Source: a virus
Reading direction: 5' to 3' (one strand)
DNA: 31,430 bases
IMG/VR virus record: IMGVR_UViG_3300033148_004847
Location: 1 to 31,430 of that record
The translations under genes and the position numbers were made by a program. Under the pieces are notes generated by a model, which saw only the letters and a program-made list of their open reading frames with translations, searched no databases and was not told where the DNA came from. This document shows positions 3,738-30,747 of the stretch, in pieces; the stretch's first letter is position 1; each line of letters starts with the position of its first letter.

Positions 3738-3986
3738 TTACGAAGAATCGGGGTTTCTTCGCTCAAGATCGTATCGAGAAATACCTAACGCCTCGCAGAT
3801 CTGATCGATCCTCTGACGGCTGGGAAGCAACCTACCCTGCTCTATTTTACAGATCGTAGGTTGGTGCAACCCGACTATTTTCCCCAGTTCCGCCTGAGTC
3901 ATACCCATCAACCTACGATGCTTCGCAATCCGAGATCCCAAGACCTTTCGCAACTCGACTTCGTTACACAACCGATCGTCTATCAT
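3738..3986 (-). CDS. XRE-family HTH transcriptional regulator
   Basis: The 82-residue protein is essentially one Cro/C1-type helix-turn-helix domain: residues 13-72 contain RIAKHRRLMGMTQAELGKIVG, then QPTICKIEQGRLLPS and a last helix IDQICEALGIS. It should bind DNA as a dimer; its target and effector are unknown. The ATG overlaps the TGA of the preceding glycosyltransferase gene (ATGA), so it is co-translated with the sugar-modification operon, and a terminator follows. An inverted repeat about 110 bases downstream of its stop is a possible operator. No C-terminal protease or dimerisation domain is present. Confidence 0.9.
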   Translation of the reverse strand: MIDDRLCNEVELRKVLGSRIAKHRRLMGMTQAELGKIVGLHQPTICKIEQGRLLPSRQRIDQICEALGISRYDLERRNPDSS

Positions 3987-4714
3987 ATCTTAGGCTCCTG
4001 ATAGCTTGTACGAGTGTGCCGCAGACGATACAAACCAGACAGATCCACGCCGACGATCCTTCCATGCCGAGCGACGAAACCTCGGTACTGACGATCGTCT
4101 ATGAAGTCTCCAAGCACCAACCCGTCTGCTCGCGGTTGCCCCCACTTCGGATGCCCGTCTAAATACCCATGCTCTCGAGCGAAGTCACCACGGACGATCT
4201 GTACACCTCCGATAGCTCTGTTGTAATGGTGAGGAACGAACTCGATCGGATCTATGTCGATCAAGTCAGTCGAAGTTGCAGCGGACAGCAGCCGAGAATC
4301 CCCCAATCGATGATCTCGGTGTATTTGAATCTCTCGTGGAAAGATCATCTGCCAATCATCGTCCCATGGCAAATCTGCCAACCGATCTAAAAGACCCTTA
4401 TAATACACCTGATCCACGTCCGAAAACCAGATCAGATCAGCCTTCGATTCCAAGGCTGCAATGTTCCGACCGATGCAGCGTCGCGTCATCATCGGTCTGC
4501 TTAGCATCAGTGGTCTGATATCAATACCTAAGTGGTAACGTCCCCAATTAGCTGCAACCAAAGCTTTCGTGTCGAAGGTGTCTAAACAGGCCGTCAACCG
4601 AACGTCGCAGGTTTTCGGCTTGTGCAACACCAAGCTGCTGATCTGGTAGCGAAGAGCCCCGGCGAAGTGCGGATTGCCCGCAGCCCAGCAGTGGCTTATA
4701 ATCTCAATCAGCAT
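3983..4714 (-). CDS. GT-A-like glycosyltransferase
   Basis: This 243-residue protein looks like a family 2-type (GT-A fold) glycosyltransferase. It starts MLIEIISHCW and has LIWFSDVDQVY with a DxD motif at residues 99-101, the usual metal and nucleotide-sugar site, preceded by an Arg-rich helix (TRRCIGRN). No membrane segment is evident, so it is probably cytoplasmic. The ATG at 4714 has GGAG seven bases upstream and overlaps the end of kdsB by 11 bases; the next gene overlaps its stop by ATGA. Donor and acceptor cannot be read from sequence. Confidence 0.75.
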   Translation of the reverse strand: MLIEIISHCWAAGNPHFAGALRYQISSLVLHKPKTCDVRLTACLDTFDTKALVAANWGRYHLGIDIRPLMLSRPMMTRRCIGRNIAALESKADLIWFSDVDQVYYKGLLDRLADLPWDDDWQMIFPREIQIHRDHRLGDSRLLSAATSTDLIDIDPIEFVPHHYNRAIGGVQIVRGDFAREHGYLDGHPKWGQPRADGLVLGDFIDDRQYRGFVARHGRIVGVDLSGLYRLRHTRTSYQEPKI

Positions 4715-5396
4715 CTCTCTTCTCCAATATCTTTGCAACTACCTCTACATCACTAAAAGTATTTACCGACGGCGGCAGCCTCCTTAGCTCGACAACTCTG
4801 ATCTCGAATCCATCTTGTATCCAAGCCAACTGCTCCAACGATTCTGCTCTGCTCAGTTCGGTCGTCGGAAGTTTTCCCAAGGTTTTGAGCACGCTGGGGA
4901 CAAAGATGTAGATTCCACAGTGACCTAAACTATCAACCATCCGAGCACGAGAGAACCAATAAGCTCTGTTATGTTCAACAGCCGCCCACACTACATCTCT
5001 TTTCCAAACGGAGGCTACCAACGTACAAACATCTCTCAACCTTGCGGATTCCATCAATTGATTGACTACCTTTGGATCGACGAGCGGCTCGTCTACCTGC
5101 CAGTTCACTACAACATCGATGTCAACATCCTGCTTGATCTGATCCAGAATCTCTGCACAACGGTGGGTGCCAGTCGGGTGATCTTTTCTGGTCGGCCGGC
5201 ACGGAATCTCTTTGCTCCGGCAGTATCGGACTATCTCCTGATCCGGCGTAGCTACGATCACCATACTGTCCGCCACCTGCTTCGCTGCTTCGTATGTCCA
5301 ATCGAGCAGACGCTTTCCCGCAATCTGGATCAACGGCTTGCCCGGCAGTCGGTTGCTTCCCATCCGAGCCGGTATTACAATGAGCTTCTTTCCCAT
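4704..5396 (-). CDS. kdsB: 3-deoxy-manno-octulosonate (Kdo) cytidylyltransferase
   Basis: The 230-residue product matches the CMP-Kdo synthetase family in length and motif order: IPARMGSNRLPGKPL (residues 8-22), HPTGTHRCAEI, NWQVDEPLVDP (QxDEP, with Val where Gly is usual), GIYIF, ESLEQLAW and NTFSDVE. The reaction is CTP plus Kdo to CMP-Kdo plus pyrophosphate, in the cytoplasm; related enzymes activate other ulosonic acids, so the exact sugar is uncertain. The start has GAGGA ten bases upstream. It overlaps the downstream glycosyltransferase by 11 bases. In a phage, CMP-Kdo could feed a phage transferase, and the GT42/DUF115-like gene at 14336-15235 is a candidate. Confidence 0.88.
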   Translation of the reverse strand: MGKKLIVIPARMGSNRLPGKPLIQIAGKRLLDWTYEAAKQVADSMVIVATPDQEIVRYCRSKEIPCRPTRKDHPTGTHRCAEILDQIKQDVDIDVVVNWQVDEPLVDPKVVNQLMESARLRDVCTLVASVWKRDVVWAAVEHNRAYWFSRARMVDSLGHCGIYIFVPSVLKTLGKLPTTELSRAESLEQLAWIQDGFEIRVVELRRLPPSVNTFSDVEVVAKILEKRDAD

Positions 5397-5409
5397 CTTC
5401 TGGTTTTCC

Positions 5410-5943
5410 TCAGCAGTAATCGTAACGCTCGAAAATCTCGTGCTCCGATCTTCTCAACCCGATGCGAAGATCGTCGTTGCAGATCAGCTTGACTTCCAGC
5501 ATAGGTTTCAGATACAAACAACCGCTCAGATCTCCGTCTACATTGAATTGCCCCATCAACTCCAGAAAGGCGTCGGGCTGGTCTTCGATCCTCTGAACTA
5601 TGTCAGCCTCGTAACTCGAAAACATCGACGTAATCCATCCCGATTGACCGTCTAAATAGCTTTCAACAAATTCCTCGAAGCTCTTACCGTTCACATTCAC
5701 ATGAAAACTTGATATTCGAGCACTGCCTTCATCCTTAACGGAATCATAGACTAGCCACAACCAGTTCAGCGGATGTCGCACTAAAGATACTCGAACAGTA
5801 TCGATTCTTCCGCCTTCCGAAAACGGCTCGTACGCTCGAGCAACGAAGCCCGGACCCAAGCCGGCCAGTTGCAACGCCCGAACAAACCAATCGGCCCCGA
5901 CGAACGGAGGGGCAGCAAATTGAAGCAGCTTGTAATCGATCAT
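5410..5943 (-). CDS. sulfotransferase-like P-loop protein
   Basis: The 177-residue protein begins MIDYKLLQFAAPPFVGADWF and later has RVSLVRHPLNWL. The spacing resembles a sulfotransferase: a 5'-phosphosulfate loop near the N-terminus (usually PxSGTTW, here degenerate) and an R.P motif for the 3'-phosphate of PAPS. If correct it would transfer sulfate, possibly to a sugar made by the neighbouring enzymes. It is shorter than typical sulfotransferases and the first loop is poor, so it may be inactive or have another role. It lies four bases downstream of the HNH gene. The start at 5943 was preferred because an upstream in-frame ATG would overlap the HNH gene by about 65 bases. Confidence 0.5.
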   Translation of the reverse strand: MIDYKLLQFAAPPFVGADWFVRALQLAGLGPGFVARAYEPFSEGGRIDTVRVSLVRHPLNWLWLVYDSVKDEGSARISSFHVNVNGKSFEEFVESYLDGQSGWITSMFSSYEADIVQRIEDQPDAFLELMGQFNVDGDLSGCLYLKPMLEVKLICNDDLRIGLRRSEHEIFERYDYC

Positions 5944-5947
5944 CTTC

Positions 5948-6391
5948 TCAGAACCCCGTTTCCACAAAGCCTTCTTCAGCAGGGCTGCTGGGCTCCCTAC
6001 CATGCCGCCCAACGAAATCGAACCATCGACAGAGCTTTCCCAACTTATTATCAGTTGTCACTTCACTTCCCTGCCTGTTGCTGTCTTCCGTGCTCATCAG
6101 TCTAAGGTTGTCCGGTGAGTCGTTCCGCCTATTGCCGTCGATATGATCCACCCTGCATTCGTCCGGTATCGCTCGCCTGTGAATCAGCATCCACACAAGT
6201 CGGTTAGCGTAGACTACCCCTACCCTGCCGTCGTACTTGAACTGATACCGTGTTCTGCCTTTGTATATGTTAGGCACCTTCTTCGACCACCTTCTTCTGC
6301 GGCAATGGTAATAATAAACAGACCTACCTTCCAGCCGCAGAAGAAACAGTTTGATCCTATTCAGACAATACTGCTCCACCTCCGAAGGCAT
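5948..6391 (-). CDS. HNH endonuclease (free-standing homing type)
   Basis: The 147-residue protein has an HNH_3-type core at about residues 80-115: YANRLVWMLIHRR, then VDHIDGNRRNDSPDNLRLMS, with the conserved H, N and N/H positions. Such proteins cut DNA and are often selfish elements inserted between phage genes. The N-terminus is basic and Tyr/Arg-rich, probably DNA-binding. GGAGG lies about 11 bases upstream and the ATG follows directly on the TAG of the radical SAM gene. Its place inside a sugar-modification operon fits a mobile intergenic insertion rather than a role in that pathway. Confidence 0.85.
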   Translation of the reverse strand: MPSEVEQYCLNRIKLFLLRLEGRSVYYYHCRRRRWSKKVPNIYKGRTRYQFKYDGRVGVVYANRLVWMLIHRRAIPDECRVDHIDGNRRNDSPDNLRLMSTEDSNRQGSEVTTDNKLGKLCRWFDFVGRHGREPSSPAEEGFVETGF

Positions 6392-7084
6392 CTAATTTCT
6401 ATCCTCCCATCTGGCAAACACAAGGGGTTCTTTCTCCAACTGCTTCAACCCTCTGGCCAGCGTAGGTGTCGGAAACTCGATCCGACCTTCCATCGCTTCC
6501 CGTTGAATCCGGAGTCTGTCCGAGGTACGAAGCGTATGGATACAATGCTGGCAGAAGTCCTCTCGCCCTTCTGATATCGGCTGCTTGCTGTAAGGATCGA
6601 CCCTCAACAGCCGTCCCAGAGCCGCAGCATGAACACAGAACGAGAAGCCGTAGCAGTCGAACAATTTGCCACAGGCTTTCGCTGTACATTCCCTGTCGTC
6701 GAACCCGAGCATGGCAGACATTCCCAGATCGGCGGGGCTGATAGCCCACGGCTTGTGATCTGAATGATCGCTGACTCGGAACCGAATCGGTATCCCGATC
6801 TGATTCATCGTTCCGTTAGTGAACGAATGCGTCAATAGCTTCGGCTCCGGCCAGGTCCGCTCTATAGCTTCTACAATTCCCGAAAGGTTCGGATGCATTG
6901 AAGGCTCACCACCGGTGAGGCGAATCCGGTCGGGTTGTATCTTGTGTTTGTGTAAAATAGCTCCAACTTCCTCGACAGCTCCGATCGACAAATCAGAGTC
7001 ATCCCACGGGATCACACCCTCGTAACGATTACACCACTTGCAGGTCATATTGCATCGATACGTAGGAACTACACCGAACTGCAT
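6392..7084 (-). CDS. radical SAM protein with Cys-rich C-terminal domain
   Basis: The 230-residue protein begins MQFGVVPTYRCNMTCKWC, giving the CX3CX2C iron-sulfur motif (C11, C15, C18), followed by LTGGEPSMHP, the SAM-binding GGE motif. The C-terminal half has Cys pairs (ECTAKACGK, FSFCVHA, DFCQHC) that could hold a second cluster in a SPASM-like way. SPASM-type enzymes act on peptides, proteins or sugars by radical chemistry. Substrate unknown. A tandem paralogue lies directly upstream at 7200-7907. An in-frame GTG at 7114 is an alternative start; the ATG at 7084 was chosen because GGAAG precedes it and it fits the paralogue's N-terminal length. Confidence 0.8.
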   Translation of the reverse strand: MQFGVVPTYRCNMTCKWCNRYEGVIPWDDSDLSIGAVEEVGAILHKHKIQPDRIRLTGGEPSMHPNLSGIVEAIERTWPEPKLLTHSFTNGTMNQIGIPIRFRVSDHSDHKPWAISPADLGMSAMLGFDDRECTAKACGKLFDCYGFSFCVHAAALGRLLRVDPYSKQPISEGREDFCQHCIHTLRTSDRLRIQREAMEGRIEFPTPTLARGLKQLEKEPLVFARWEDRN

Positions 7085-7199
7085 CAACTTCCAGCCTTCT
7101 CTCACTTCGTACACGCCTTTCTGTATGAAAATTGAGGCAGCGGACGCTCAAAAGTAACGCAACCTGTCACTCGAATTCAAAACTAATTCTTTGCAAAAA

Positions 7200-7907
7200 T
7201 CAATGCTTCAACTCCTGAAACCTAGGAAGCTTTCTAGGTACTTTCTTCAATGCCTCTGCAAACGTCGGCGTAGGAAACTTGATCCGACCTTCCATTGCGG
7301 CCTGCTGAATCTCGTTTTTCTTCTTCACACTCAGCGATAGTACGCAATGGCAACACAGATCCCTTCTGCCGCTCAATACGGGTCTACTACTGTGAATGCC
7401 TTCCAGACCGAGCAATCTGACCAGCGGCGATGCCTGAGCACAAGGAGAGAATCCAAAAGCATCAAAACCGAATCCACATCTTGACTGCAATGTACAACAG
7501 TTTCCCTTTTCAAATCCTCTCACTGGTTCCAAACCCAAATCGGCGGGGCTGAGCATGTAAGGCTGGTGGACTTTCTTTGCCAAAGGACTGCAATACAACC
7601 TGGCAGAAATCTCGGCGGGGATTCGATAGGTGCCATTGCCGAACACCATAATCCGCTAGGGTATCCATACATCCTTCAGAATTCCGTAGCATCGGAGGAA
7701 ATCTGGATGCATCAAGGGTTCACCACCGCTGATCTTGAGCTTACGTATGGCAATTCCTATATCCTTCACTCTCTCTCCGGCCAAAACAAGGTCGTCAGCT
7801 TTCAAGTAACTGTCCGGCCACGGTCGAAGATCGAAGAATCGCATGCACCACTTGCAACGGCTGTTGCAATCGTAAGTCAAGCAGACTTCGTAGCAAACAG
7901 TTTTCAA
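7200..7907 (-). pseudogene. radical SAM paralogue interrupted by an in-frame amber codon
   Basis: Residues 1-83 carry CNSRCKWC and ISGGEPLMHP; a TAG at 7656-7658 then ends the frame. The same frame continues as MVFGNGTYRIP to the Cys-rich C-terminal domain, ending EGRIKFPTPTFAEAL. Aligned with the tandem paralogue at 6392-7084 (shared AISPADLG/MLSPADLG and EGRI.FPTPT), the protein is collinear over its whole length of 235 codons, so only the one codon separates the halves. Translation starts at TTG 7907 with AAAGGA eight bases upstream, directly after the previous TAA. The restart ATG at 7649 has no good ribosome binding site. It may be a nonsense mutation, suppressed readthrough, or a two-piece protein. 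Confidence 0.75.
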
Positions 7908-8414
7908 TTATGCTTCCTTTCGGTTTCGTCGGCAGTCTTTATTGTTCTTTCCTACTCTAAACGCTTCGATCACCGTCCGGGCGATGGCGTCGGCTTTAGT
8001 CTCGCCATATCGCATCACATGCGCCAGATGGTCCCGCGGACGAATGCCACACTGATGCTTGCCTATTTGTTGGTCGAAAATCAGAATCGTGTCGGCCCCT
8101 TGTGCTTCAGCCCACGCGAGTACCGCGAACGCCGCAGCGGGACTGGTTGACCATCGCGGACCATGGTAAACAGCACGCAATGCGACCTGGCGAGGATCAG
8201 TCAAGTCGCACTTGACATAGTTGAAGAACTTCGGGCAGGCAGCGTCTGGAGTGACCAAAACTCGACACAGCGGTCCATTAGGTGGCTTGTAATCGAGATC
8301 ATGGTGACGAATCCATTGCCATCCCATGATCTCCGCGAGCACCACATCCATCTTGGGGTCGGGTTGCAGGTCATTCGGCATTGCGTGTTCCTTTCTCACG
8401 TCGGGCTTGCTCAT
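7908..8414 (-). CDS. phage ABA-sandwich domain-like protein
   Basis: The 168-residue protein has MDVVLAEIMGWQWI, then RWSTSPAAAFAVLAWA and a late ETKADAIARTVIEAFR. The order LVAE.MGW, then a W/Y-S-T-A-A pattern, then an A..A...A helix, resembles the small 'phage ABA sandwich' (BC1881-like) family common in phages, whose function is unknown. The ATG at 8414 overlaps the TGA of an 18-codon ORF (ATGA). A second ATG at 8381 has a better AAAGGA site and could be the real start. It separates the radical SAM pair from the small genes upstream. Confidence 0.65.
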   Translation of the reverse strand: MSKPDVRKEHAMPNDLQPDPKMDVVLAEIMGWQWIRHHDLDYKPPNGPLCRVLVTPDAACPKFFNYVKCDLTDPRQVALRAVYHGPRWSTSPAAAFAVLAWAEAQGADTILIFDQQIGKHQCGIRPRDHLAHVMRYGETKADAIARTVIEAFRVGKNNKDCRRNRKEA

Positions 8415-8931: not shown

Positions 8932-9553
8932 TTATCGAACCTTCTCGTAGCACTGCATAAACTTGTGCTCCCACAACAACTTTACATCGTCGCCTATGAT
9001 GTCCAGAAACATTTTGATTCCGTACTCTGCATGATCGATCCAGCCGCCGCAACGCTTCAGCCGACGCCATCGATTGGGTCTCTTTACATCGTCAAACAAT
9101 ATGCAACCACCGATCCTCAACAGTTCATAGACCAACAAGGCATCGTCTAAGACGGAGTAGGCGGAGTGCTCTCCATCCACCATGCAAAGGTCCAACTTGC
9201 TCCGAGCAATTCCGAAAAAACCATGACTAGTCTCCAGCATCTTCCTCAACGCAGTCGCCGAAGTGGATCGATGCAAGCTGCAACGCCGCAGCCACGGACT
9301 CAGATTCCAGACAGCACTCTGTCTCCAACGGAAGCCAGGGGTCGATACCAACGGCTCTGCTATCTGGATGGGTAAGCACGTTCTGCATCATCCAGGTCAA
9401 ACTCTGTCCCTCGTACACTCCAATCTCCAGATAGGTGATCGGCTTGCCAGCCCACATCGGGAGTACATATTCCTCAAATGTGGCTTGGTTCCTTCTCCTG
9501 AACCAGTTTCGAGTGAACCGAAAATCATGCTTAGTTTGCTCTGTATCTATCAT
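8932..9553 (-). pseudogene. class I SAM methyltransferase broken by a frameshift
   Basis: The first frame starts at 9553 (ATGA overlap with the glycosyltransferase gene) and encodes a SAM-binding motif (YLEIGVYEGQSL) and GIDPW; it then runs out of homology and stops at 9227. From about 9315 the +1 frame takes over with AVWNLSPWLRRCSLHRS, LDLCMVDGEHSAYSVLDD and LFDDVKR, ending at 8932. Together these form one recognisable methyltransferase of about 206 residues, related to small phage/glycan methyltransferases. From memory, relatives have roughly 15 residues between the DPW and NLSPW segments against about six here, so a small deletion causing the shift is likely. A sequencing error or programmed shift cannot be excluded. 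Confidence 0.65.
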
Positions 9554-10419
9554 ACTGACCTCACCTTGTCCAAGTGCTTGTTGCTCACCTTGCCCCTCCA
9601 CTCTGCCATACCTCCGACATTCTCCCGCAGGCACTCGTCATATATTGGCAGCCACAAATCGCATCCTCTCTTGCTCTTGTTAGGTCGGCAGCAAGATGAT
9701 CCATGGTAATGATATATCGAAACATCCTCGTGCTTGAGTTGTGCGGACTTCAAATGCGGCGACGAATTCCACTTCCCAAGATCAGTGGCTACAACGAACT
9801 CAGCCATGTTGAACTTCGGCATCGCCAAGTGCTGAGCTACCTCGTCGGGAATAAACATGCTGCTGGCAATCTCACTCCACATGAGCCACATCGAAAGCAC
9901 GGGGGAATCGGGACGGCAAGCCACTACTCCGCAATTCAACGCCGGGTACCGATTCTTCAACAATTCTTCCACTAAACGCTGGTCTATATCTCGAAACAGC
10001 CGCAACCGTGCCAACCGCTTAGAGACTCTGTTTCCCAATGTAGTCCAATCACACCATTGCGTTGCTGCATATCCGTGTTGAGAAGCCAGATCCATCAAAA
10101 CATGCAACGGACCGTGGATCGTCGTGTCGCAATCCAGATACAGAGTAACTTCCCTCTGCTCTTGCATGACCAAAATGCGGTCCAAAGCCTGTCGCTTCTT
10201 TCCGTTCAGCTTGGCAAACCTATTGCTTCCACCAGCTTCCGGTCGAAACTTCCAGTATGCCGACAATCTTGGATCTACTGCTATTCTGCTAACGATCTCC
10301 GCCGACTGGGGCCAAACGTAAATCAAAACCTTGCCATCCCAATGCTTCCTCAACGTATAGAGCGAACATACCAAATACGGGAGATGTGCCGGACCGCTCA
10401 CATAATAGATCACCTGCAT
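9550..10419 (-). CDS. GT8-like glycosyltransferase
   Basis: The 289-residue protein starts MQVIYYVSGPAHLPYLVCSL and has VTLYLDCDTTIHG with a DxD at residues 96-98, then PALNCGVVACRPDSP and HYHGSS. This order (N-terminal sheet, LDxD, NxGV, HxHG) resembles family 8-type GT-A glycosyltransferases, which use UDP-sugars and a divalent metal. The start at 10419 has a very strong AGGAGG eight bases upstream and overlaps the FkbM gene by ten bases; a longer in-frame extension to 10563 was rejected. No membrane helix is seen. Acceptor unknown. Confidence 0.78.
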   Translation of the reverse strand: MQVIYYVSGPAHLPYLVCSLYTLRKHWDGKVLIYVWPQSAEIVSRIAVDPRLSAYWKFRPEAGGSNRFAKLNGKKRQALDRILVMQEQREVTLYLDCDTTIHGPLHVLMDLASQHGYAATQWCDWTTLGNRVSKRLARLRLFRDIDQRLVEELLKNRYPALNCGVVACRPDSPVLSMWLMWSEIASSMFIPDEVAQHLAMPKFNMAEFVVATDLGKWNSSPHLKSAQLKHEDVSIYHYHGSSCCRPNKSKRGCDLWLPIYDECLRENVGGMAEWRGKVSNKHLDKVRSV

Positions 10420-11099
10420 CGCTGGAACCTCCTGATCTCGCTCGGAAAACAGCAGTAACGTGGATCGAACAGGCACGGTCTCACGTAAGCCACATCGTGC
10501 TGCCCCTGGTGCGGTCGCTTCGTATGACTCCATTGAGCGAAGAAACCGTTCGATATCATCCAATCGTCTATCTCAACCGTCGTAGGCCAGTCCTCCGGAC
10601 AGTTGGATGTCATCTCGATGTTGACCACATCTATCTCTTTTACAAACTCCCGTCCACCGCGAAGCACCTCCAATTCACTCCCTTCGCAATCCAACCACAG
10701 CAAGGATTTTTTCCCAGGCGGAGGCATGGGCCAAAAGTCGTCCATCTTTGCGACCTTCACTGGGAACGAAACAATGTGCTCATCTTCCTTCGCCATCACA
10801 CTCTTCAGTGTAGAGCCATCCCTGTGACGCCTCTTGCTGTGCAGAACACCTTCTCCACTAGACGATCCGAAGGCCACGTTGTTCAACATCCCTGGATATT
10901 TCTTCTCTATGTCTCGATATGTCTTGGGATGGGGCTCTACGCCCAGAATCTTCACAACTGGCCACTCCTCCACAAATACATCTATCTCTTCATAACGTCC
11001 ACCCACTCCAACCTGATATATGTAGTCCGGCCGCCAGCCCAAGTTGATCGATACACCTACAACAGCAATTCCCGACCGCCTGAACAATCTACCTGGCAT
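10410..11099 (-). CDS. FkbM-family methyltransferase
   Basis: The 229-residue protein has a Rossmann-type SAM motif (QVGVGG, 29-34), GVEPHP (53-58) and the FkbM signature LLWLDCEGSELEVLRGG (133-149), followed by VVNIEM. FkbM enzymes O-methylate sugars or polyketides and are common in glycan clusters. The ATG at 11099 has GGAG about ten bases upstream. That site lies inside a 33-bp sequence repeated at 11645-11677, so this gene's leader has been duplicated. The C-terminal about 20 residues are Arg/Cys-rich and do not look like the family core. Confidence 0.82.
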   Translation of the reverse strand: MPGRLFRRSGIAVVGVSINLGWRPDYIYQVGVGGRYEEIDVFVEEWPVVKILGVEPHPKTYRDIEKKYPGMLNNVAFGSSSGEGVLHSKRRHRDGSTLKSVMAKEDEHIVSFPVKVAKMDDFWPMPPPGKKSLLWLDCEGSELEVLRGGREFVKEIDVVNIEMTSNCPEDWPTTVEIDDWMISNGFFAQWSHTKRPHQGQHDVAYVRPCLFDPRYCCFPSEIRRFQRCR

Positions 11100-11130
11100 T
11101 GAATCAGTCTCCAAAATGTTTTATCGATGA
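11098..11130. repeat. 33-bp direct repeat, copy 1
   Basis: The 33 bases are identical to 11645-11677. This copy covers the 3' end of the 108-residue gene and the ribosome binding site plus AT of the start codon of the FkbM gene. Confidence 0.95.
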
Positions 11131-11430
11131 CGAATGCGTTTCGGGCCGAGAAACGGGTTCTGGAGCCACCGGAATCGCTTCCGGTGCAGAAACGGCCTTC
11201 CACTGTTTATCCCAGGCTTGCTGTACCTGTAGTTGTTCATCTTGCTTGATGGCAGTTGCTTTTGGATTCACCAATGGACGAGGACCAAGTTCGACCCATG
11301 ATTCACCTTCAAACTCCGTCAGTAGTTTTGCGGGGACCGTGTTGCCGCATTGAAGCCGGTTCTGTAAAACCTTGCGGCGTCGTGATTTAGCTCCTTCGGC
11401 TAATAGAGTCAGCTTGATTTCACTTGCCAT
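11104..11430 (-). CDS. unknown protein in an apparent insertion
   Basis: The 108-residue protein starts MASEIKLTLLAEGAKSRRRK. A basic N-terminal third is followed by a Glu/Gln-rich helix and a Pro/Ala/Glu-rich C-terminus (APEAIPVAPEPVSRPE). No family is recognised. AAGGA lies about eight bases before the ATG. The gene and the 237-base non-coding stretch upstream are bounded by a 33-bp direct repeat, so the segment looks like a later insertion between the glycosyltransferase and FkbM genes. Its last nine codons lie within one repeat copy, so the C-terminus may have been created by the insertion. Confidence 0.6.
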   Translation of the reverse strand: MASEIKLTLLAEGAKSRRRKVLQNRLQCGNTVPAKLLTEFEGESWVELGPRPLVNPKATAIKQDEQLQVQQAWDKQWKAVSAPEAIPVAPEPVSRPETHSSSIKHFGD

Positions 11431-11644
11431 GATACATTCCTTGTAAGCTAAGGGTTTTTCAATCAAGTTACTAGTTATACGGCGGCAGAAAGGTATTTTG
11501 TTAGGCCAATATAATCATCAATCAGACCGTGGAGACGGGTGGTACGTTTGGGAAGATCCTGGGTAGCGGTTTGCCGGAGAGTGCTGATAAAGCAATTGAA
11601 CAACGTCTAAGCTCGGCAATGTAATCGAGAGCTTCCTGCAAGAA
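11431..11644. other. non-coding stretch inside the inserted segment
   Basis: This gap holds no convincing gene. On the minus strand a 39-codon frame from a TTG at about 11635 (LQEALDYIAELRRCS and onward to a TGA) has some protein-like character but no proper ribosome binding site; it may be a gene remnant. No terminator or promoter is clear. Confidence 0.4.
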
Positions 11645-11677
11645 ATTGAATCAGTCTCCAAAATGTTTTATCGATGA
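11645..11677. repeat. 33-bp direct repeat, copy 2
   Basis: Identical to 11098-11130. This copy overlaps the TAA stop of the glycosyltransferase gene at 11668 and carries the same GGAG site, but the ATG that follows in copy 1 is ATT here, so no gene starts. Confidence 0.95.
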
Positions 11678-12450
11678 TGAAAGAGGGCGAACGGCTTCTC
11701 CACACTTAGGTCGGTCAACGGAGTCCGCTTCATCGAAACAACTACAGGTTCTATTCCGAAGAAAGCGTCTCCCACCGTCTTTATTCCATACCTCTTCTCC
11801 AAACTATAGGTAATAACCTGATCGCCACCGACATATTTGTTCGGATGCCTGCCATGAAGCTCGTCCCAATCCTCCAGCATATCGTCGAAGATGTCGGCAT
11901 CGGTAGCATAACAAAAACAATAATTCAAACCAACATGAGGGTCAACTCTATCCAATCCGCTCCCACTCGATTCCCGCCAAAAGAAAAATGGCCAAGGATA
12001 GATAGTCAACGGTATCTGCACACGACTCCCCAACCCATCCTTGTCATCCAACAGCTTCAAAGCAGTTTGAAACCGATCCGAGAATTCGGGGGTCGGCATA
12101 CAATCAAAATCAGTGTAGATAAATCTGTCGCAATAATCCAAGGCACGATACAATAGGAAAGCTTTATTCCAGAACGGATGATATCCAGTGGGATGACACT
12201 TCCCCCGATCGTCCACCTGAACGATTCTACGGACTCCCATCTTTTTCAATCTGTCGGTGGCCCACTCGCCAGCGGTAATATACAAAACGGAACCTAGCAT
12301 GAAGTCTCGGTAGGGATCCTTAAAGGAACGCTCTATATCCTCATCCAACAGTCTAGCATCCCGACGCTGCCTTCTATCTAGCAGACGACCAAATGCCCTG
12401 CGATTACCTTTGCCATCGCCATACAAAATCCGGATGAACGTCAAATCCAT
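11668..12450 (-). CDS. GT-A-like glycosyltransferase
   Basis: The 260-residue protein has FIYTDFDCMPTPEF with a DxD at residues 114-116 and an N-terminal nucleotide-binding-like strand (MDLTFIRILYGDGKG). YHPFWNKAFLLYRAL before the DxD and KYVGGDQVITYSL near the end fit a GT-A fold with a late catalytic or acceptor loop. The ATG at 12450 has a perfect GGAGG five bases upstream and overlaps the preceding methyltransferase by ten bases. The stop lies inside the 33-bp repeat. It is not closely similar to the other three glycosyltransferases, so distinct donors or acceptors are likely. Confidence 0.75.
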   Translation of the reverse strand: MDLTFIRILYGDGKGNRRAFGRLLDRRQRRDARLLDEDIERSFKDPYRDFMLGSVLYITAGEWATDRLKKMGVRRIVQVDDRGKCHPTGYHPFWNKAFLLYRALDYCDRFIYTDFDCMPTPEFSDRFQTALKLLDDKDGLGSRVQIPLTIYPWPFFFWRESSGSGLDRVDPHVGLNYCFCYATDADIFDDMLEDWDELHGRHPNKYVGGDQVITYSLEKRYGIKTVGDAFFGIEPVVVSMKRTPLTDLSVEKPFALFHHR

Positions 12451-13043
12451 TCCTTCCTCCACATCAATTCCGGTTGCCTGGGTTTCTCGACTACGCATAT
12501 TCTAGCTGCGAAGTGAAGCATCGGTCCGATTCCTTTTCGCACCTTTCCCAAATTCCTAGCGAGTTCGGTCAACCAATTCACAGTGGTAATTAACCCCATA
12601 GGATTATTAGTTCTAGGTCGAACGAAGGAAGATCGAAGATCTTCTATCGCATACAATCCACCCGGAGAAACGTAAGGCCAGAGCACCCGAAAGCTGGTCT
12701 GCTGCTCCTTCATCTTGTGGCCACCGTCATCGATCACTATGTCCATCGGTCCGATCTTCTCGGCTACTTCTTTTAGAAATACTTCATCCGCCTGGTCTCC
12801 AACGAACACTTCGAAACCCTCTGAGTCTTCCGGCATGACCAAATCAATTCCATATATCTTGCTATTCGGAAAGTAACACTTCCATGCTCGCAGTGAGTTA
12901 CCCTCTTTGACGCCGATCTCCAGCAATGTAGTCGGCTGCGAGCAACGCGACTCCATCAACTCCTCGTAAAGCAAAGCATACAAATGGTCTGCCTTGTCCG
13001 TTCCGTATTTCTTAAATAGTTCGTGAAGCCTGGAATTCTTCAT
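12441..13043 (-). CDS. class I SAM methyltransferase (sugar O-methyltransferase type)
   Basis: The 200-residue protein has KKYGTDKADHLYALLYEELM, then LLEIGVKEGNSLRAWKCYFP (SAM motif I), KIYGIDL, VGDQADEVFL, DIVIDDGGHKMKEQQTSF and PGGLYAIEDL. This matches the family of macrolide- and cephamycin-type methyltransferases (TylF/CmcI-like), where IDDGGH contributes metal and SAM binding. Many relatives in glycan clusters methylate sugar hydroxyls. The ATG overlaps the previous gene's TGA by ATGA. The C-terminal 30 residues are basic and less conserved in appearance. Confidence 0.82.
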   Translation of the reverse strand: MKNSRLHELFKKYGTDKADHLYALLYEELMESRCSQPTTLLEIGVKEGNSLRAWKCYFPNSKIYGIDLVMPEDSEGFEVFVGDQADEVFLKEVAEKIGPMDIVIDDGGHKMKEQQTSFRVLWPYVSPGGLYAIEDLRSSFVRPRTNNPMGLITTVNWLTELARNLGKVRKGIGPMLHFAARICVVEKPRQPELMWRKEWI

Positions 13044-13831
13044 TTCATAGCCTCCTCGGAATACTTCCTTACGTTTTCAAACGTACTCCATTGTTGCCAT
13101 CCAGTGTTCTTTTTCATATTCAAGTAAACTACCTTCAGTCCCAACCGCTCGGCTACATACCACAGATAACTGTCTTGACTAGCTACTGGAAGCTGATACT
13201 GTCCGCAGGTCAGGGTCGCCCACTCCGCCGCCCGGCAATTGAACCTAGTATCGAAAAATCCGCACCACGAATTGATCCGCTTGTGACAAACGCGATCCCA
13301 ACCTTCCAGCGGAACCAGATTCAAAGGTTTCTTGATGGCTAGTTCCGGCAGCTTGTTTTTATGCTGAGCCACCCAGTCGTCCAACCGAACCATAAGATCC
13401 GGCGGTCGGGAAAATCCCCACTTATGGGAAATGATAGTTGGTGAACCATCAAACCATTCCGATTTAATCCAATCGTCATTCCCAATAGCTACAACGTCCG
13501 TGTCCAACTTGAGAAAGTAGGGCGTCTCGACGAATCGAGCTGCGGCATAAACAAATCCGGTCAACATCTTGTGACGCTGCGGGTTGTTCCACTTGTCGCT
13601 ACCGTCTCCAGAAAAGACCACCCCGTCCGGAGGCCACGCCACTAAGTTGATCGAGGTGCCTAGAAGATCAATTATCTTCCTCTTCGTCACACTCGCTTTG
13701 TCATAGAACACTATCACCGGACGATCGAACGTCGATGGCTTGTATCGCCGCCAAGTAGGCCACACCCAAGCAAGCTGATCTAGATGCTTATCGTCGATTC
13801 CCAAAACTACGGTAAAATCAGGTATACTCAT
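13040..13831 (-). CDS. GT-A-like glycosyltransferase
   Basis: The 263-residue protein begins MSIPDFTVVLGIDDKHLDQL and has TPYFLKLDTDVVAIG with a DxD at residues 110-112, then conserved-looking WCGFFDTRFNC and QDSYLWYVAERLGL. This fits a cytoplasmic GT-A glycosyltransferase with unknown donor. The start at 13831 has AGGGGA about five bases upstream; the in-frame extension to 13957 was rejected because it would overlap the cupin gene and lacks such a site. It is followed by a coupled methyltransferase (ATGA), and such pairs often act on the same glycan. Confidence 0.75.
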   Translation of the reverse strand: MSIPDFTVVLGIDDKHLDQLAWVWPTWRRYKPSTFDRPVIVFYDKASVTKRKIIDLLGTSINLVAWPPDGVVFSGDGSDKWNNPQRHKMLTGFVYAAARFVETPYFLKLDTDVVAIGNDDWIKSEWFDGSPTIISHKWGFSRPPDLMVRLDDWVAQHKNKLPELAIKKPLNLVPLEGWDRVCHKRINSWCGFFDTRFNCRAAEWATLTCGQYQLPVASQDSYLWYVAERLGLKVVYLNMKKNTGWQQWSTFENVRKYSEEAMK

Positions 13832-13903
13832 GCTATCCCCTAAAACAATCCCGAGAAGGCCCCTAGCTTTGCATCTAAGGGACTTCCGACCCGAAGCAGT
13901 TGG

Positions 13904-13933
13904 ATTATCCTTGGAGGTCCGAACGTCCGTAAA
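13904..13933 (-). promoter_or_regulatory. possible promoter between the cupin and glycosyltransferase genes
   Basis: On the minus strand TTTACG, 18 bases, GATAAT lies in the 106-base gap before the glycosyltransferase gene. A 7-bp hairpin (CCCTTAG/CTAGGGG) follows. Both hexamers deviate from consensus. Confidence 0.3.
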
Positions 13934-13937
13934 CGTG

Positions 13938-14339
13938 CTAAGCAGGACCCCCCTCAATCAATCTTTCGATGTCGTTCCGTCGCACCTCTCCGTCCGGCCA
14001 GTAGACCTCTACCATACATCCAGATTCCTTAACTACGAATTGATGAACTACCAAACTGGGAATCAAACAAGAGTCGCCCGGACCCAACAAATGAACGGCA
14101 GGCGGATTCTCTCCCAACGGAAGGAATCCTGACGGCCACTCTTTCACTTCCACGCTGCCGCTCAACACGATAAACAAGTTTGCTCGATTCCGATGCCAAT
14201 GAGCCGAACACTGCCAACCTTCCATTACCTTGAGCAAACTGACGGCTGCGTGCGGATTGTTAAACAAATGCTTGACCCACCCCCAGCATTTTTTCTCCCA
14301 CGATTCATCCACCAGGCAATCAACCAACGACTCGTTCAT
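13938..14339 (-). CDS. cupin-fold protein, sugar-phosphate isomerase-like
   Basis: The 133-residue protein is a single cupin: motif 1 around residues 43-61 (GWQCSAHWHRNRANLFIVLSG, with H47 and H49; the usual Glu is replaced by Asn) and motif 2 around 86-100 (LGPGDSCLIPSLVVHQF, H99). This is close to the C-terminal cupin of type II mannose-6-phosphate isomerases and to small sugar-phosphate or WxcM-like cupins. A role in making or isomerising a sugar precursor fits the cluster, but the lost Glu leaves activity uncertain. The ATG overlaps the preceding transferase gene by ATGA. Confidence 0.8.
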   Translation of the reverse strand: MNESLVDCLVDESWEKKCWGWVKHLFNNPHAAVSLLKVMEGWQCSAHWHRNRANLFIVLSGSVEVKEWPSGFLPLGENPPAVHLLGPGDSCLIPSLVVHQFVVKESGCMVEVYWPDGEVRRNDIERLIEGGPA

Positions 14340-15235
14340 TTCTTCTCTCCCACCGGATTTTCATCGTACCAACCAGAAAGATTCGGACTGTCCGTAACTT
14401 CTCCCCTGCAATCTATTATCGCCTCGTCGAAAGGTACATAAGAAAAGGCTCTCAACCCGCTCCATTCGTTGCAGTTGAAGACCTCTAAGCCGAACCTGTC
14501 GAACGTCCCTCCCTGCTGCATCCGACAAAGCCAATCGTTCACCGTAATGAACTGAGCATTGTTCGATCGACAGGTTTTGTCATCCCTTACCTGCGGAAAG
14601 GAATATCCCCGGTCGGGACTCATATGAAAGTCCACTCCCACAAGGTATATTCTTCTGGCACCAAGGTAGTAGAGCATCCTCAAAGCCAGCAGCATCGTAC
14701 AAACCGTCTTCGACTCGCCAGTCCTCTTGGAACCGCTATCGTGGTTTCCCCAGCAAGCGGCTTCGGACAGAAAGAAAGAATCGTCCGGCTTCAATTCGCT
14801 ACTTCGTTGGTAGCCCCATACGTTAGGACACTCGAACACCCGCCTATAAAACTTCTCGAAAGATCCGTCCGGCAACCTTCGACGGAGCTTGGCTCTAGTC
14901 CCCCGCAACTTCACAATCGGAGCGAACTTCTTTATACCTGGATCCAACCAAATCTCGTGACTGAACTTTCCGACCGGATCGGAACAGAGCATAGCTTGGG
15001 GACGGAACTTAGAATGGCCCGCTGCGTTGTTCACAGCCAACGTCCAGATTCCACGGCCGTTCAAAAGTTCCAACGGAAGCTGGTTGCCAGACGGTCCACC
15101 ACAGAACAGAAAGGCCCGTCCTCCCGCTAGCAAGTTTCTCAAAGCGTGAGTCTGTATCAGATTATGACAATCCACTACCTTGAGCGGATCTTGCCACGTA
15201 GATAGAAAGTCTTGATTCCCCATATGCAACCCCAT
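14336..15235 (-). CDS. GT42/DUF115-like CMP-sugar glycosyltransferase
   Basis: The 299-residue protein has AFLFCGGPSGNQLPLELL (residues 41-58), WTLAVNNAAG, a cysteine and SDP (CSDPVG), and TMLLALRMLYYLGARRIYLVGVDFHMS (180-206) followed by YSF. A GxGPS loop and a late ALGxxxIYLxGxDFY block are the hallmarks of GT42 sialyltransferases (Cst-II type); Maf/DUF115 flagellin glycosyltransferases share a similar fold. Both use CMP-activated ulosonic sugars, and kdsB lies in the same operon. The gene begins three bases after a virion gene with a Ser/Thr tail. The ATG has no strong ribosome binding site, so coupling to the upstream stop is likely. Assignment from motif memory, not a search. Confidence 0.55.
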   Translation of the reverse strand: MGLHMGNQDFLSTWQDPLKVVDCHNLIQTHALRNLLAGGRAFLFCGGPSGNQLPLELLNGRGIWTLAVNNAAGHSKFRPQAMLCSDPVGKFSHEIWLDPGIKKFAPIVKLRGTRAKLRRRLPDGSFEKFYRRVFECPNVWGYQRSSELKPDDSFFLSEAACWGNHDSGSKRTGESKTVCTMLLALRMLYYLGARRIYLVGVDFHMSPDRGYSFPQVRDDKTCRSNNAQFITVNDWLCRMQQGGTFDRFGLEVFNCNEWSGLRAFSYVPFDEAIIDCRGEVTDSPNLSGWYDENPVGEKK

Positions 15236-19668: not shown

Positions 19669-19859
19669 CAGCGAAGCTCCTCGTAGAATCTCTCCATGCG
19701 CCCCTTCGACTCCAGCTCCATCTTTTGCTCCATCGATTCCAATTCAAACCCCCAGAACCGCTTCTCCGTCTTGACGCCCAACATCGTCTGGATTAGCAGG
19801 CAACCAGTCACCACAATCAACAAGCAATACGATACGAACTGAGTCCATCTATCGTCCAC
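19668..19859 (-). CDS. small membrane protein between chaperone and tape measure
   Basis: The 63-residue protein has one probable transmembrane helix at residues about 8-28 (FVSYCLLIVVTGCLLIQTMLG) followed by a charged helix (ESMEQKMELESKGRMERFYEEL). It starts with GTG preceded by AAGGAG five bases upstream, and overlaps the chaperone ORF by 11 bases and the tape measure ATG by one base. A membrane protein in this position is unusual; no family is recognised. It could be a tail-tip or ejection accessory, or a lysis-related protein, but nothing in the sequence decides. Confidence 0.65.
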   Translation of the reverse strand: MDDRWTQFVSYCLLIVVTGCLLIQTMLGVKTEKRFWGFELESMEQKMELESKGRMERFYEELR

Positions 19860-20211
19860 GGCGTCTCCTTCGTCTGTTCTTACGGTCGTCTCTTTTAGCC
19901 TTTTCCTGCTCCATCAACTCCCTAGCTCGACTCTTTCCTCGGAACGGTCTGTAGATCACGTTGCCTTCCTTGTCCCTACCCTTGACCAACCCATCCTTCG
20001 TCGTTGAAAGCGACGTAACCTGGGAAGGTTCCATCGCAACCGTTCGACCGTCATGCTTTCTCAAATGCTTTCGATCGGCTAGGGCAAACATCACTTGGTC
20101 CACGGTCATCTCTCCGACCTCCTTCGGCGTGTACGACCTACCACCCAACCATTGATTCTCGCACAACCAACTGAGATGTACAGGCACCAAACCGCAGAAC
20201 AATCCCTCCAC
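19849..20211 (-). CDS. tail assembly chaperone extension (T-like, reached by -1 frameshift)
   Basis: This frame encodes a 120-residue basic product (from GTG 20211) ending in an Arg run (RRRRRRGR). It stays open upstream through the end of the preceding chaperone gene, past the heptamer GGGAAAT at 20256-20262, so a -1 frameshift yields a fusion of about 342 residues, as with lambda gpG-T. In lambda the T part binds the tape measure protein. A separate start at the GTG, with AGGA five bases upstream, is also possible. The next gene but one is the tape measure, as expected. Residues near 15-25 (CENQWLGG) link the two parts. Confidence 0.75.
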   Translation of the reverse strand: MEGLFCGLVPVHLSWLCENQWLGGRSYTPKEVGEMTVDQVMFALADRKHLRKHDGRTVAMEPSQVTSLSTTKDGLVKGRDKEGNVIYRPFRGKSRARELMEQEKAKRDDRKNRRRRRRGR

Positions 20212-20219
20212 TATTTCCT

Positions 20220-20262
20220 GCCCACCACTGGACTCTCCGGTGGCGGGCCCTAACCATTTCCC
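20220..20262 (-). promoter_or_regulatory. -1 programmed ribosomal frameshift signal
   Basis: The slippery heptamer G-GGA-AAT lies in the zero frame of the chaperone gene (GGA is codon 206), four codons including the stop before it ends. Seven bases later a hairpin pairs GCCCGCCAC with GTGGTGGGC over nine base pairs (one G-U) around an 11-base loop, and overlaps the region just past the TAG. Lambda uses GGGAAAG at the same place in its G gene. The -1 frame is open on both sides of the site. Confidence 0.85.
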
Positions 20263-20876
20263 ACCGAAGGTGCCGTCAGATGCTCGATCTCCCGAGCCAG
20301 TTCGGCGAGCAAAGACTGATTGCTCTGCATAGCCTCGACAACCTGCTCCTTGGTAACACCGTTATGCTTGAAACAAACCCAGACGAAGGTAACGATACCC
20401 TCGAAACATCCAGTGACCCACCACCAGGCATAAGGAATCTTCACGAACATAGGCATCGAGTTAGTCATCTCTCTGTACTGCTCCTTGGACAGCGATCCAT
20501 CGTCCAGAGAACTACTCGCCATGATCTGAACCCTCTTGTCGGTGGGCTCCTCTTCATTGCGAACTTTGTACCAATCTCGCAACAGATCGGTCACTTGTAT
20601 CGTTCCGTGGTCGCAGGATTGTTTGGGAGGTAAATCACCAATGTCCCATCGAGCAGCTCTTTCCAAAGCTTCCTCGACCTTTCTCTGCCCTTCCGGCAAC
20701 AGATCCATCGAATCGACGAAGGTCTTGATGTAAGACCGGCGATAGGATTCCAGGCAGATACGCTCTACCTCACCCAATTCCTTGATCGACAACGGCCTCG
20801 CCGTACATTGCTTGCCAGCGATCGTTACAGTAGTTGTTCCCTCGGAACCGACCGCTCTGGCCATATCCTCTGACAT
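20250..20876 (-). CDS. tail assembly chaperone (G-like)
   Basis: The 208-residue protein begins MSEDMARAVGSEGTTTVTIAGKQCTARPLSIKEL, a pattern usual for tail assembly chaperones, with helical segments and a hydrophobic WWWVTGCFEGIVTFVWVCF stretch at about 150-170 that is unusual for this role. It should act in the cytoplasm, coating the tape measure protein during tail assembly. The ATG at 20876 has AGGAG 11 bases upstream; the longer in-frame start at 21068 lacks one. Its last codons carry the frameshift heptamer, and the tape measure gene lies nearby downstream. The sequence identity of the family is from position and frameshift more than motifs. Confidence 0.75.
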   Translation of the reverse strand: MSEDMARAVGSEGTTTVTIAGKQCTARPLSIKELGEVERICLESYRRSYIKTFVDSMDLLPEGQRKVEEALERAARWDIGDLPPKQSCDHGTIQVTDLLRDWYKVRNEEEPTDKRVQIMASSSLDDGSLSKEQYREMTNSMPMFVKIPYAWWWVTGCFEGIVTFVWVCFKHNGVTKEQVVEAMQSNQSLLAELAREIEHLTAPSVGNG

Positions 20877-20911
20877 AATTGTGTATCTCCTAGCAAGATG
20901 TAATGAGCGAC

Positions 20912-21127
20912 TCAGTGGACGCTCGTTAGTTCTCTGGCAAGCGAACCGGAGTGACATCGACGGGGTATTAAGCCCAGGAGATAGGCCAATGCGGGTGGAA
21001 TCACCCTTACGGAAGGAATGTCGGTCTGAAAATGAAGTCGATGTCTCTCGGAAACGCAGTCGAGGCACGGACAGCTTGGCATCCAGTGATGCTCTCCGCT
21101 AGCAGTGACTCGTATGTTCTCGTTCAT
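20912..21127 (-). CDS. small protein with CxCxxC motif
   Basis: The 71-residue ORF, starting MNENIRVTASGEHHWMPSCPCLDC, fills the gap between the tail tube and chaperone genes. HH followed by CPCLDC could bind a metal. The remaining sequence is hydrophobic and basic. The ribosome binding site is weak (GATCGGG), so the gene is less certain than its neighbours. A longer start at 21202 would overlap the tail tube gene and was rejected. No family is assigned. Confidence 0.45.
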   Translation of the reverse strand: MNENIRVTASGEHHWMPSCPCLDCVSERHRLHFQTDIPSVRVIPPALAYLLGLIPRRCHSGSLARELTSVH

Positions 21128-29473: not shown

Positions 29474-29725
29474 TCATTCCTTCGAGGAACTTCCCGCCGG
29501 TCGGCGAAAGGAATCTCTCAGGACTCGATAATGAACAGCCTTTCGCTTGCCTCCATGCACCTCTAACTTGATCGTAAAGTCCGAACCCCCGACCATCTCA
29601 TCGCAGAAAGCCGCTTGAAAATCACCCATGGCAACCTCAAACATCAACAGAGATTCGTCGGCTCCTTCTCCGATGGCCTTTCTGTAATCCCTGGTTTTAT
29701 CAACTAGCTTATTGTTTTGAGCCAT
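29474..29725 (-). CDS. hypothetical small phage protein
   Basis: The 83-residue protein (MAQNNKLVDKTRDYRKAIGEGADESLLMFEVAMGDFQ) is not recognised; the C-terminus is basic (GGKRKAVHYRVLRDSFRR) and ends Ser-rich. AGGAG lies six bases before the ATG at 29725. It overlaps the previous gene by 17 bases. It is the last gene of the right-hand small-gene block before the head-module promoter. Confidence 0.65.
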   Translation of the reverse strand: MAQNNKLVDKTRDYRKAIGEGADESLLMFEVAMGDFQAAFCDEMVGGSDFTIKLEVHGGKRKAVHYRVLRDSFRRPAGSSSKE

Positions 29726-29954
29726 CCAAATCTCCTGGCAACAGCAGCAAACTCTGTCCCTTATCAACTCTCACATCGAACAACGTACAGTCCACGACTA
29801 ACACCTCGGCCGGACTAGCCCACTTCTGGATCATGTTTTTCAACCTGTTGGATTCCTGTCTGCTCAATTTCTGATAAACACGAACCAACACCTTGTCCCC
29901 ATCCTCGAACCTCAGCCGTGAGCACTGCACATCAGCTATCCTAGGAGTAGTCAT
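29709..29954 (-). CDS. hypothetical small phage protein
   Basis: The 81-residue protein begins MTTPRIADVQCSRLRFEDGDKVLVRVYQKLS and continues with a helix (QESNRLKNMIQKWASPAEVLVVD). The ADV.C.RLRF..GD.VLVR.Y pattern recalls a small phage family I cannot name. The ATG overlaps the TGA of the preceding membrane protein by one base (TGATG), indicating coupling. A longer in-frame start at 30008 was rejected for that reason. Confidence 0.65.
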   Translation of the reverse strand: MTTPRIADVQCSRLRFEDGDKVLVRVYQKLSRQESNRLKNMIQKWASPAEVLVVDCTLFDVRVDKGQSLLLLPGDLDGSKQ

Positions 29955-30136
29955 CAGTTCAAACTCCTGCACATCCAATGTGATAGGTACTCTTCGTCTC
30001 CTCCACAATCATCATAATCGCCATCGTCTTCGATGCGGATCTCCTCCAATCTCCGAGAAAGCTCACCAACTTTTGCCGACAAAACCCCTATCACATAACC
30101 CAACACAAGTCCTACCGTCAACGATAACCAGTCCAT
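29954..30136 (-). CDS. small single-pass membrane protein
   Basis: The 60-residue protein has one transmembrane helix at residues about 4-22 (LSLTVGLVLGYVIGVLSAK) followed by a charged helix and an Asp/Glu-rich segment (IEDDGDYDDCGGDEEYL). GGAG lies seven bases before the ATG. Size and topology recall small phage holin-like or spanin-accessory proteins, but there is no lysis gene next to it, so no function is assigned. Confidence 0.65.
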   Translation of the reverse strand: MDWLSLTVGLVLGYVIGVLSAKVGELSRRLEEIRIEDDGDYDDCGGDEEYLSHWMCRSLN

Positions 30137-30139
30137 GTT

Positions 30140-30535
30140 TCATCTCCAATTCAGAGTAATCTTCGGTTGGTTCCGCAGCACGCAATTCATATCTACAGTC
30201 CACTCTGCAATCGTTCTCAAAGACTTCAACTCCGCCTCGGTGTGTCGATAGTCTCCGAACCCACCGCAGTACGAGCAACATATCGACTTCCCGGGAAGCA
30301 CTAACACCTCCTTGTTTCCGCACTTTTGACAACGATGCCTCATCCTCATCTGCCTCCATCGCAACATATCTTTATCCAACTCAGCGGGTATCGGAAGCGA
30401 TTCTCCCTTGATTCTTTGCCACGATCTGGTCAAGTCCAGAAACCTGTCCTCCACTGCCTGGCAGAGCGACACTTCATCGTAGCTGCTAGGCACCAGCCGG
30501 TTGGAATGAATCAGCTTGCCGTTGCGTCTATTCAT
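30140..30535 (-). CDS. zinc-ribbon protein
   Basis: The 131-residue protein has a CX2C-X13-CX3C-type zinc ribbon at residues 69-90 (RCQKCGNKEVLVLPGKSICCSYCGG), preceded by a helical part (SWQRIKGESLPIP, DMLRWRQMRMRHR) and followed by a helix and strands. Zinc ribbons occur in phage transcription and DNA-interaction proteins; no specific family is recognised. The ATG overlaps the preceding gene by ATGA. It sits between two other small Cys-containing or membrane genes. Confidence 0.75.
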   Translation of the reverse strand: MNRRNGKLIHSNRLVPSSYDEVSLCQAVEDRFLDLTRSWQRIKGESLPIPAELDKDMLRWRQMRMRHRCQKCGNKEVLVLPGKSICCSYCGGFGDYRHTEAELKSLRTIAEWTVDMNCVLRNQPKITLNWR

Positions 30536-30747
30536 ATCACATACTCCGACTCTTGCCCGTCTGGTCGATTGATACTGTTGAACAACAAACCCCCATCACC
30601 CTCTACCGACGAACCGTGGTGATTGCTTCCATTCCAAATCACATCTGGAATACGTTCTGGAAAGGCATCGCATGTATGCTTCTCCAACGATCTCAATCTG
30701 GAACAAAATGAGCAGACCACACTAGCGAAATTGGTGTCATCAATCAT
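30532..30747 (-). CDS. small Cys-rich phage protein
   Basis: The 71-residue protein has CSFC near residues 12-15, then CDAFPERIPDVIWNG and HHG with EGDGGLLF. C..C....C.AFP..IP..I..G...H....GD.G..F recurs in small phage proteins of unknown function, often near portal and minor head genes. The ATG at 30747 overlaps the preceding gene by ATGA; a longer start at 30810 would overlap by 67 bases and was rejected. Confidence 0.7.
   Translation of the reverse strand: MIDDTNFASVVCSFCSRLRSLEKHTCDAFPERIPDVIWNGSNHHGSSVEGDGGLLFNSINRPDGQESEYVI

Follow-up and report, generated by a model that had tools for sequence, protein, structure and literature searches.

The window analyzed here, a whole IMG/VR virus record of 31430 bases, is linear by its end class and thus probably a fragment. 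Its minus strand carries radSAM1 (7200..7907), a radical SAM gene recognized by its translation, by a match to PF04055 over residues 10-71 and by a family alignment (A4) with 14 other sequences. Read from 7907 to 7200, the gene runs TTG ... CCC TAG CGG ... TGA and comprises 235 codons with exactly one internal stop, the amber codon TAG at 7656..7658 (residue position 84), ahead of its natural stop TGA at 7200-7202. A sequence-only reading of this DNA had described the frame with its single TAG, which stands, but the start had to be corrected to TTG 7905-7907, immediately past the upstream stop. Composition-matched shuffles of radSAM1 contained a mean of 12.3 stops, and one stop or fewer was seen in none of 2000 trials. 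The gene is followed by radSAM2 (6392..7114, minus strand), an intact tandem paralogue of 240 aa that ends at TAG 6392-6394. As that reading had proposed, radSAM1 is collinear with radSAM2 before and after the TAG, with 36% identity along the full length, and it is likewise collinear on both sides with independent phage homologues (32-42% identity). The motifs common to the two window copies are TYxCNxxCKWC, GGEP, and MHP before the stop and SPADLG, CG, FD, GF, C, HC, and AMEGRI after it.

The cluster motif CxxxCxxC is present in both window copies (CNSRCKWC and CNMTCKWC), with cysteines invariant in 15 of 15 alignment rows, and both also have GGEP, a SAM-binding-type motif after strand 2, the GGE of which is invariant in all rows. 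Pfam matches the N-terminal half of the radical SAM core only; here radSAM2 scores 36.7 bits against the PF04055 cut-off of 29.5, and radSAM1, at 27.0-27.2 bits, falls just below it. Membership of both genes among the radical SAM proteins is supported by the family alignment together with the structure. PHROGs returned weak matches to generic or QueE-like radical SAM families, and matches in NCBIfam were far below every cut-off. We conclude that the two genes belong to a short radical SAM family of ~235 aa, without a specific Pfam, PHROG, or NCBIfam model, that occurs in uncultured phages (L054, L055, L053, and others). The family motifs are SPADLG, CG+xFDxFGF, and CxHC; cysteines C144, C156, C185, and C188 are invariant and C138 is present in 14 of 15 rows, and among these may be the four auxiliary-cluster ligands of a SpeY/BtrN-like enzyme, the last two of which form a CxxC. 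The model of the read-through protein aligned with SpeY (PDB 7wzv) at Z 13.6 and rmsd 3.6 over 197 of 235 residues, with 17-19% identity, and with BtrN (PDB 4m7s) at Z 11.3, the next rows being at Z 9.6. Foldseek alone covered approximately the N-terminal 95 residues, and a second aligner extended this coverage. SpeY and BtrN are twitch radical SAM dehydrogenases in aminocyclitol antibiotic pathways. The likeness to them lies in the predicted fold alignment and in C-terminal cysteines that end in CxxC; unlike SpeY, however, to which the sequence match covers the N-terminal core only, radSAM1 is phage-encoded beside transferase and cytidylyltransferase genes. The predicted fold of the family is thus SpeY/BtrN-like and, with the sugar-type genes of the surrounding island, makes sugar oxidation a plausible candidate activity, although a shared fold does not show function.

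Phage kin of the window were traced via the capsid gene, and among them the 92-kb genome G004 has an intact radSAM1 homologue. A profile of the two window paralogues alone was too narrow in its patterns to find homologues; once the G004 homologue was included, a three-row and then a nine-row profile brought further members of the family. Searches of whole records yielded 14 intact full-length homologues on 12 IMG/VR phage contigs, two further homologues cut by contig ends, and one that is broken. None of the 14 has an internal stop, at the amber site or elsewhere. This is the pattern that the sequence-only reading had set against any special decoding, namely a sense codon in the relatives and a stop here alone, and its suggestion of a recent loss gains support from the same 14 sequences. 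The homologue at L111:8001-8670 is frameshifted at ~8425, where the sequence is rich in T, and an ambiguous base follows downstream; this may be a sequencing error. Two intact radical SAM copies lie side by side in L054 (L054:3448-4907), as they do here; the two copies of G009 lie far apart. Few branches of the family tree are well supported, but the two window copies were joined in 0% of bootstrap trees, so that the pair appears to be old and not recently duplicated. No relative above ~45% identity was found. Neither 8-mer peptide patterns nor a pattern built on the residues that follow the stop found a close isolate with the same codon, in searches that may pass over the records closest to the window; the latter pattern gave two matches, both unrelated. 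Further, INPHARED and PLSDB held no close DNA relatives, and a scan of bacterial genomes returned only distant radical SAM cores.

Structure prediction for the read-through protein (mean pLDDT 86.8) locates the amber position in the loop between helix 70-81 (helix 2) and strand 85-90 (strand 3). The 15-row alignment places an invariant tryptophan three residues upstream of it and an NG motif downstream, and in the amber column itself the other rows show seven different residues or one gap. By this alignment, the loop holding the amber codon is hypervariable, which indicates that the stop is private and the site unconstrained. The expected truncated product of 83 aa (7659..7907, minus strand) retains only the CxxxCxxC cluster motif and the GGEP motif and is without the rest of the core (strand 3 onward) and the five C-terminal cysteines. 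All five of these conserved cysteines lie in the downstream remainder of 149 aa (7200..7649, minus strand), which is opened by an ATG at 7647-7649. The two halves might accordingly be made as separate chains, the second restarting at this ATG two codons past the stop, to yield a split enzyme; the ATG is in frame, 6 nt past the stop and at the start of strand 3, and its position would suit termination-reinitiation coupling. However, no relative is split, no aligned relative has a methionine at this position, and no clear ribosome-binding site is seen before the ATG. We regard a split enzyme as the least probable of the alternatives considered here and the ATG as a chance one, not a designed restart.

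With respect to REASSIGNMENT, suppression, and readthrough, TAG terminates 5 of the 25 window genes, radSAM2 among them. The earlier view that general reassignment is unlikely is thus borne out, and we reject genome-wide reassignment, as reading through TAG gives no plausible gain elsewhere and only radSAM1 acquires a supported gene-length frame. In TAG-recoded phages (code 15, crAss-like), genes read under code 11 are fragmented and coding density is low, and these phages have suppressor tRNAs (PMC9523058). The window resembles them in having an in-frame TAG in a phage gene but differs in that there is one such codon, in the genes that end at TAG, and in the lack of a tRNA in the contig. Neither ARAGORN nor Rfam detected a tRNA in this 31-kb fragment, and no CUA anticodon was seen in a covariance search of 18 related phage records, which gave only a tRNA-Ile (GAT), found in G009, a CAU element, and a degenerate element. 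Suppression by a phage tRNA, as suggested earlier, therefore found no support in this fragment or in these records. The degenerate element, a tRNA-like element of G004 with a long variable arm (58310-58410, L133:1501-1601; Rfam 35.2 bits, not called by ARAGORN), has an anticodon loop that looks degenerate, without CUA, and the CAU tRNA-like element of that genome lies ~1.1 kb downstream of it.

The other signals proposed for readthrough fared no better. The C that follows the TAG, which had been put forward as a leaky context, is not distinctive, as the natural stop of the gene at 13938-14339 is also TAG-C, and no stimulatory RNA structure beyond chance was found in a 161-nt fold round the stop (z = +0.65; 152 of 200 shuffles fold as well). 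As the stop is also unconserved, deliberate low-level readthrough is left without support. Alternatively, a host suppressor tRNA or natural leakiness might allow passage through the stop, at a low or regulated level, and so yield some full-length enzyme. The loop is tolerant, so that almost any residue would fit, the part downstream of the stop is conserved, the read-through protein models confidently, and stops of this kind may act as short-term down-regulation (PMC7918605). Conversely, the stop occurs in no relative, and efficient suppression would extend the five TAG-terminated genes as well, radSAM2 by 147 codons and into the HNH frame. We give such readthrough a slim chance, which we retain because the same survey also allows some readthrough. 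We consider it very unlikely that the amber codon has been retained as a valve for low-level expression, with suppression by a host tRNA, or by a phage tRNA encoded beyond this fragment, supplying a small dose of full-length enzyme beside the unregulated paralogue. We also note that radSAM2 and the HNH endonuclease ORF that abuts it (5948..6391, minus strand) share one frame (5948-7147(-)) with only TAG 6392-6394 and then an ATG between them, and amber suppression would fuse the two.

The two radical SAM genes lie in an accessory island that probably modifies sugars, judging by its gene content. One part of it (3983..6012), all on the minus strand, comprises an ORF at 5410-6012, a CMP-sugar-type cytidylyltransferase (4704-5396), and an ORF at 3983-4738 whose family recurs within the G004 and L055 islands. 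There are three to four repeats of this family in the kin islands (L048:5766-10742 and L055:10578-12687), suggesting a fast-evolving transferase array. The upstream part (9550..15235, minus strand) includes an ORF at 9550-10563, an FkbM methyltransferase (10410-11114), a Methyltransf_24 gene (12441-13043), and a sialyltransferase-like gene (14336-15235). Directly upstream of radSAM1 is an ORF of 168 aa (7908..8414, minus strand) for which no relatives were found; in L055 and G004 a methyltransferase takes this place, directly preceding the radical SAM gene and overlapping its start, and the G004 copy is N-terminally short. In the window, the corresponding methyltransferase (8932..9553, minus strand; type assigned from the Pfam match of the intact L055 homologue) is broken by a frameshift at ~9307-9331, ~1.4 kb upstream of radSAM1. 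Comparison with kin identifies frame 9227-9637(-) as the N part and frame 8932-9387(-) as the C part of a Methyltransf_24-type methyltransferase that is a single frame in L055 (211 aa) and L105 (218 aa). The distance from the GIDPWL motif to NLSPW is 25 nt in the window, as against 60 nt in L055 and 57 nt in L105; by this comparison, the frame is broken by a net loss of 32-35 nt and not by a single-base error. Because this neighbor is frameshifted, the sequence-only claim that no other damage is visible fails. Thus, the methyltransferase and radSAM1 are both broken, and radSAM2 and the Methyltransf_24 gene at 12441-13043 are open; that both members of a neighboring pair are broken favors a decaying part of the accessory island.

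Two other apparent breaks in the window, at 29474-30595 and 19849-21098, were rejected as damage, as kin have the same separate or overlapping frames. The latter (19849-21098(-)) consists of two overlapping frames upstream of the tape-measure gene, with the overlap kept in L044, L039, and L041, as expected for tail-assembly chaperones made via programmed frameshifting. Further, a stretch of low-complexity repeats at 1943-2742 is open on both strands, and its ORF on the plus strand (2149-2742) gives a weak, below-cut-off match to histone H1-like HC2. In the kin phage L049 (G003 40000-55805), a QueD, QueE, and FolE-like gene run was assigned by eye from translations, which suggests that phages of this group modify DNA by a 7-deazaguanine pathway.

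The damage to the methyltransferase also bears on whether the TAG arose from an error of base calling, consensus, or assembly, or is a minor population variant, with the gene intact in most virions. One base change would suffice, all else in radSAM1 is intact, and the error-like frameshift in L111 indicates that such contigs do carry errors. The second lesion of the window, however, is not a single-base change, and the structural genes agree with those of kin and show no further breaks. We consider an error or minor variant unlikely, although less so than readthrough. The conservation of the gene itself was compared at columns invariant in the eight other rows of alignment A3. Upstream of the stop, each of the two window copies departs at 0 of 13 such columns; downstream of it, radSAM1 departs at 4 of 26 and radSAM2 at 3 of 25. 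Conserved positions are thus kept on both sides of the stop, which indicates that the lesion is either young or a base error. We note that 5.0% of radSAM1 point changes would give stops and that, as radSAM1 has no second lesion, neutral divergence since inactivation would be at most ~1.7-4.3%, assuming an indel:substitution ratio of 0.05-0.2. Against a loss, the part after the stop is conserved like the intact paralogue with no decay visible, there being one lesion in 708 nt, and a radSAM1 still used through readthrough would show identical conservation; with one contig, a young stop, selection via readthrough, or an unreal stop all fit. In favor of a loss, the independent tandem pair in L054 is intact in both copies, and a second island gene is broken by a multi-base deletion.

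Overall, we think it likely that the TAG in radSAM1 is a recent, ordinary nonsense loss in an accessory, probably sugar-modifying island. A nonsense mutation would have hit one of the two radical SAM genes of the island, and translation would stop after residue 83; the resulting fragment would have the SAM-cluster motif but neither the C-terminal cysteine domain nor anything from strand 3 onward, and would presumably be no working enzyme. We infer that the amber base is real in the virus and that no useful amount of full-length radSAM1 protein is made. The accessory nature of the island, the full paralogue next to radSAM1, and the breakage of the neighboring methyltransferase would explain why the loss is tolerated. 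In a large survey of bacterial genes, in-frame stops were common, short-lived, and over-represented in mobilome genes (PMC7918605). Like the genes of that survey, radSAM1 has one in-frame stop, private to one lineage, and a frame that is otherwise open and conserved, and by analogy it best fits this class of nonsense-interrupted accessory or mobilome genes, although unlike them it is known from one contig only. In the Campylobacter phages CP220 and CPt10, clusters of radical SAM genes were termed a probably non-essential interchangeable module (PMC2853527). Here too, several radical SAM genes lie close together in a phage, and the precedent suits the dispensability of radSAM1. The relationship between the proteins is distant, however, with an identity of ~26-31% that is confined to the N-terminal core. 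Moreover, the radical SAM genes of a related Campylobacter phage have amidinotransferase and aminotransferase genes as neighbors, unlike those in the window.

As a private stop in an accessory phage gene, the TAG is of small interest for decoding. It does argue that, before invoking suppression for a lone in-frame TAG in a phage contig, one should look at the homologues and at the neighboring genes. Of more use is a by-product, the short SpeY/BtrN-like radical SAM family in uncultured phages. In several of these phages, the family belongs to islands that also encode methyltransferases, a cytidylyltransferase, and repeated transferase-like proteins, and it is a candidate for phage-encoded sugar oxidation.
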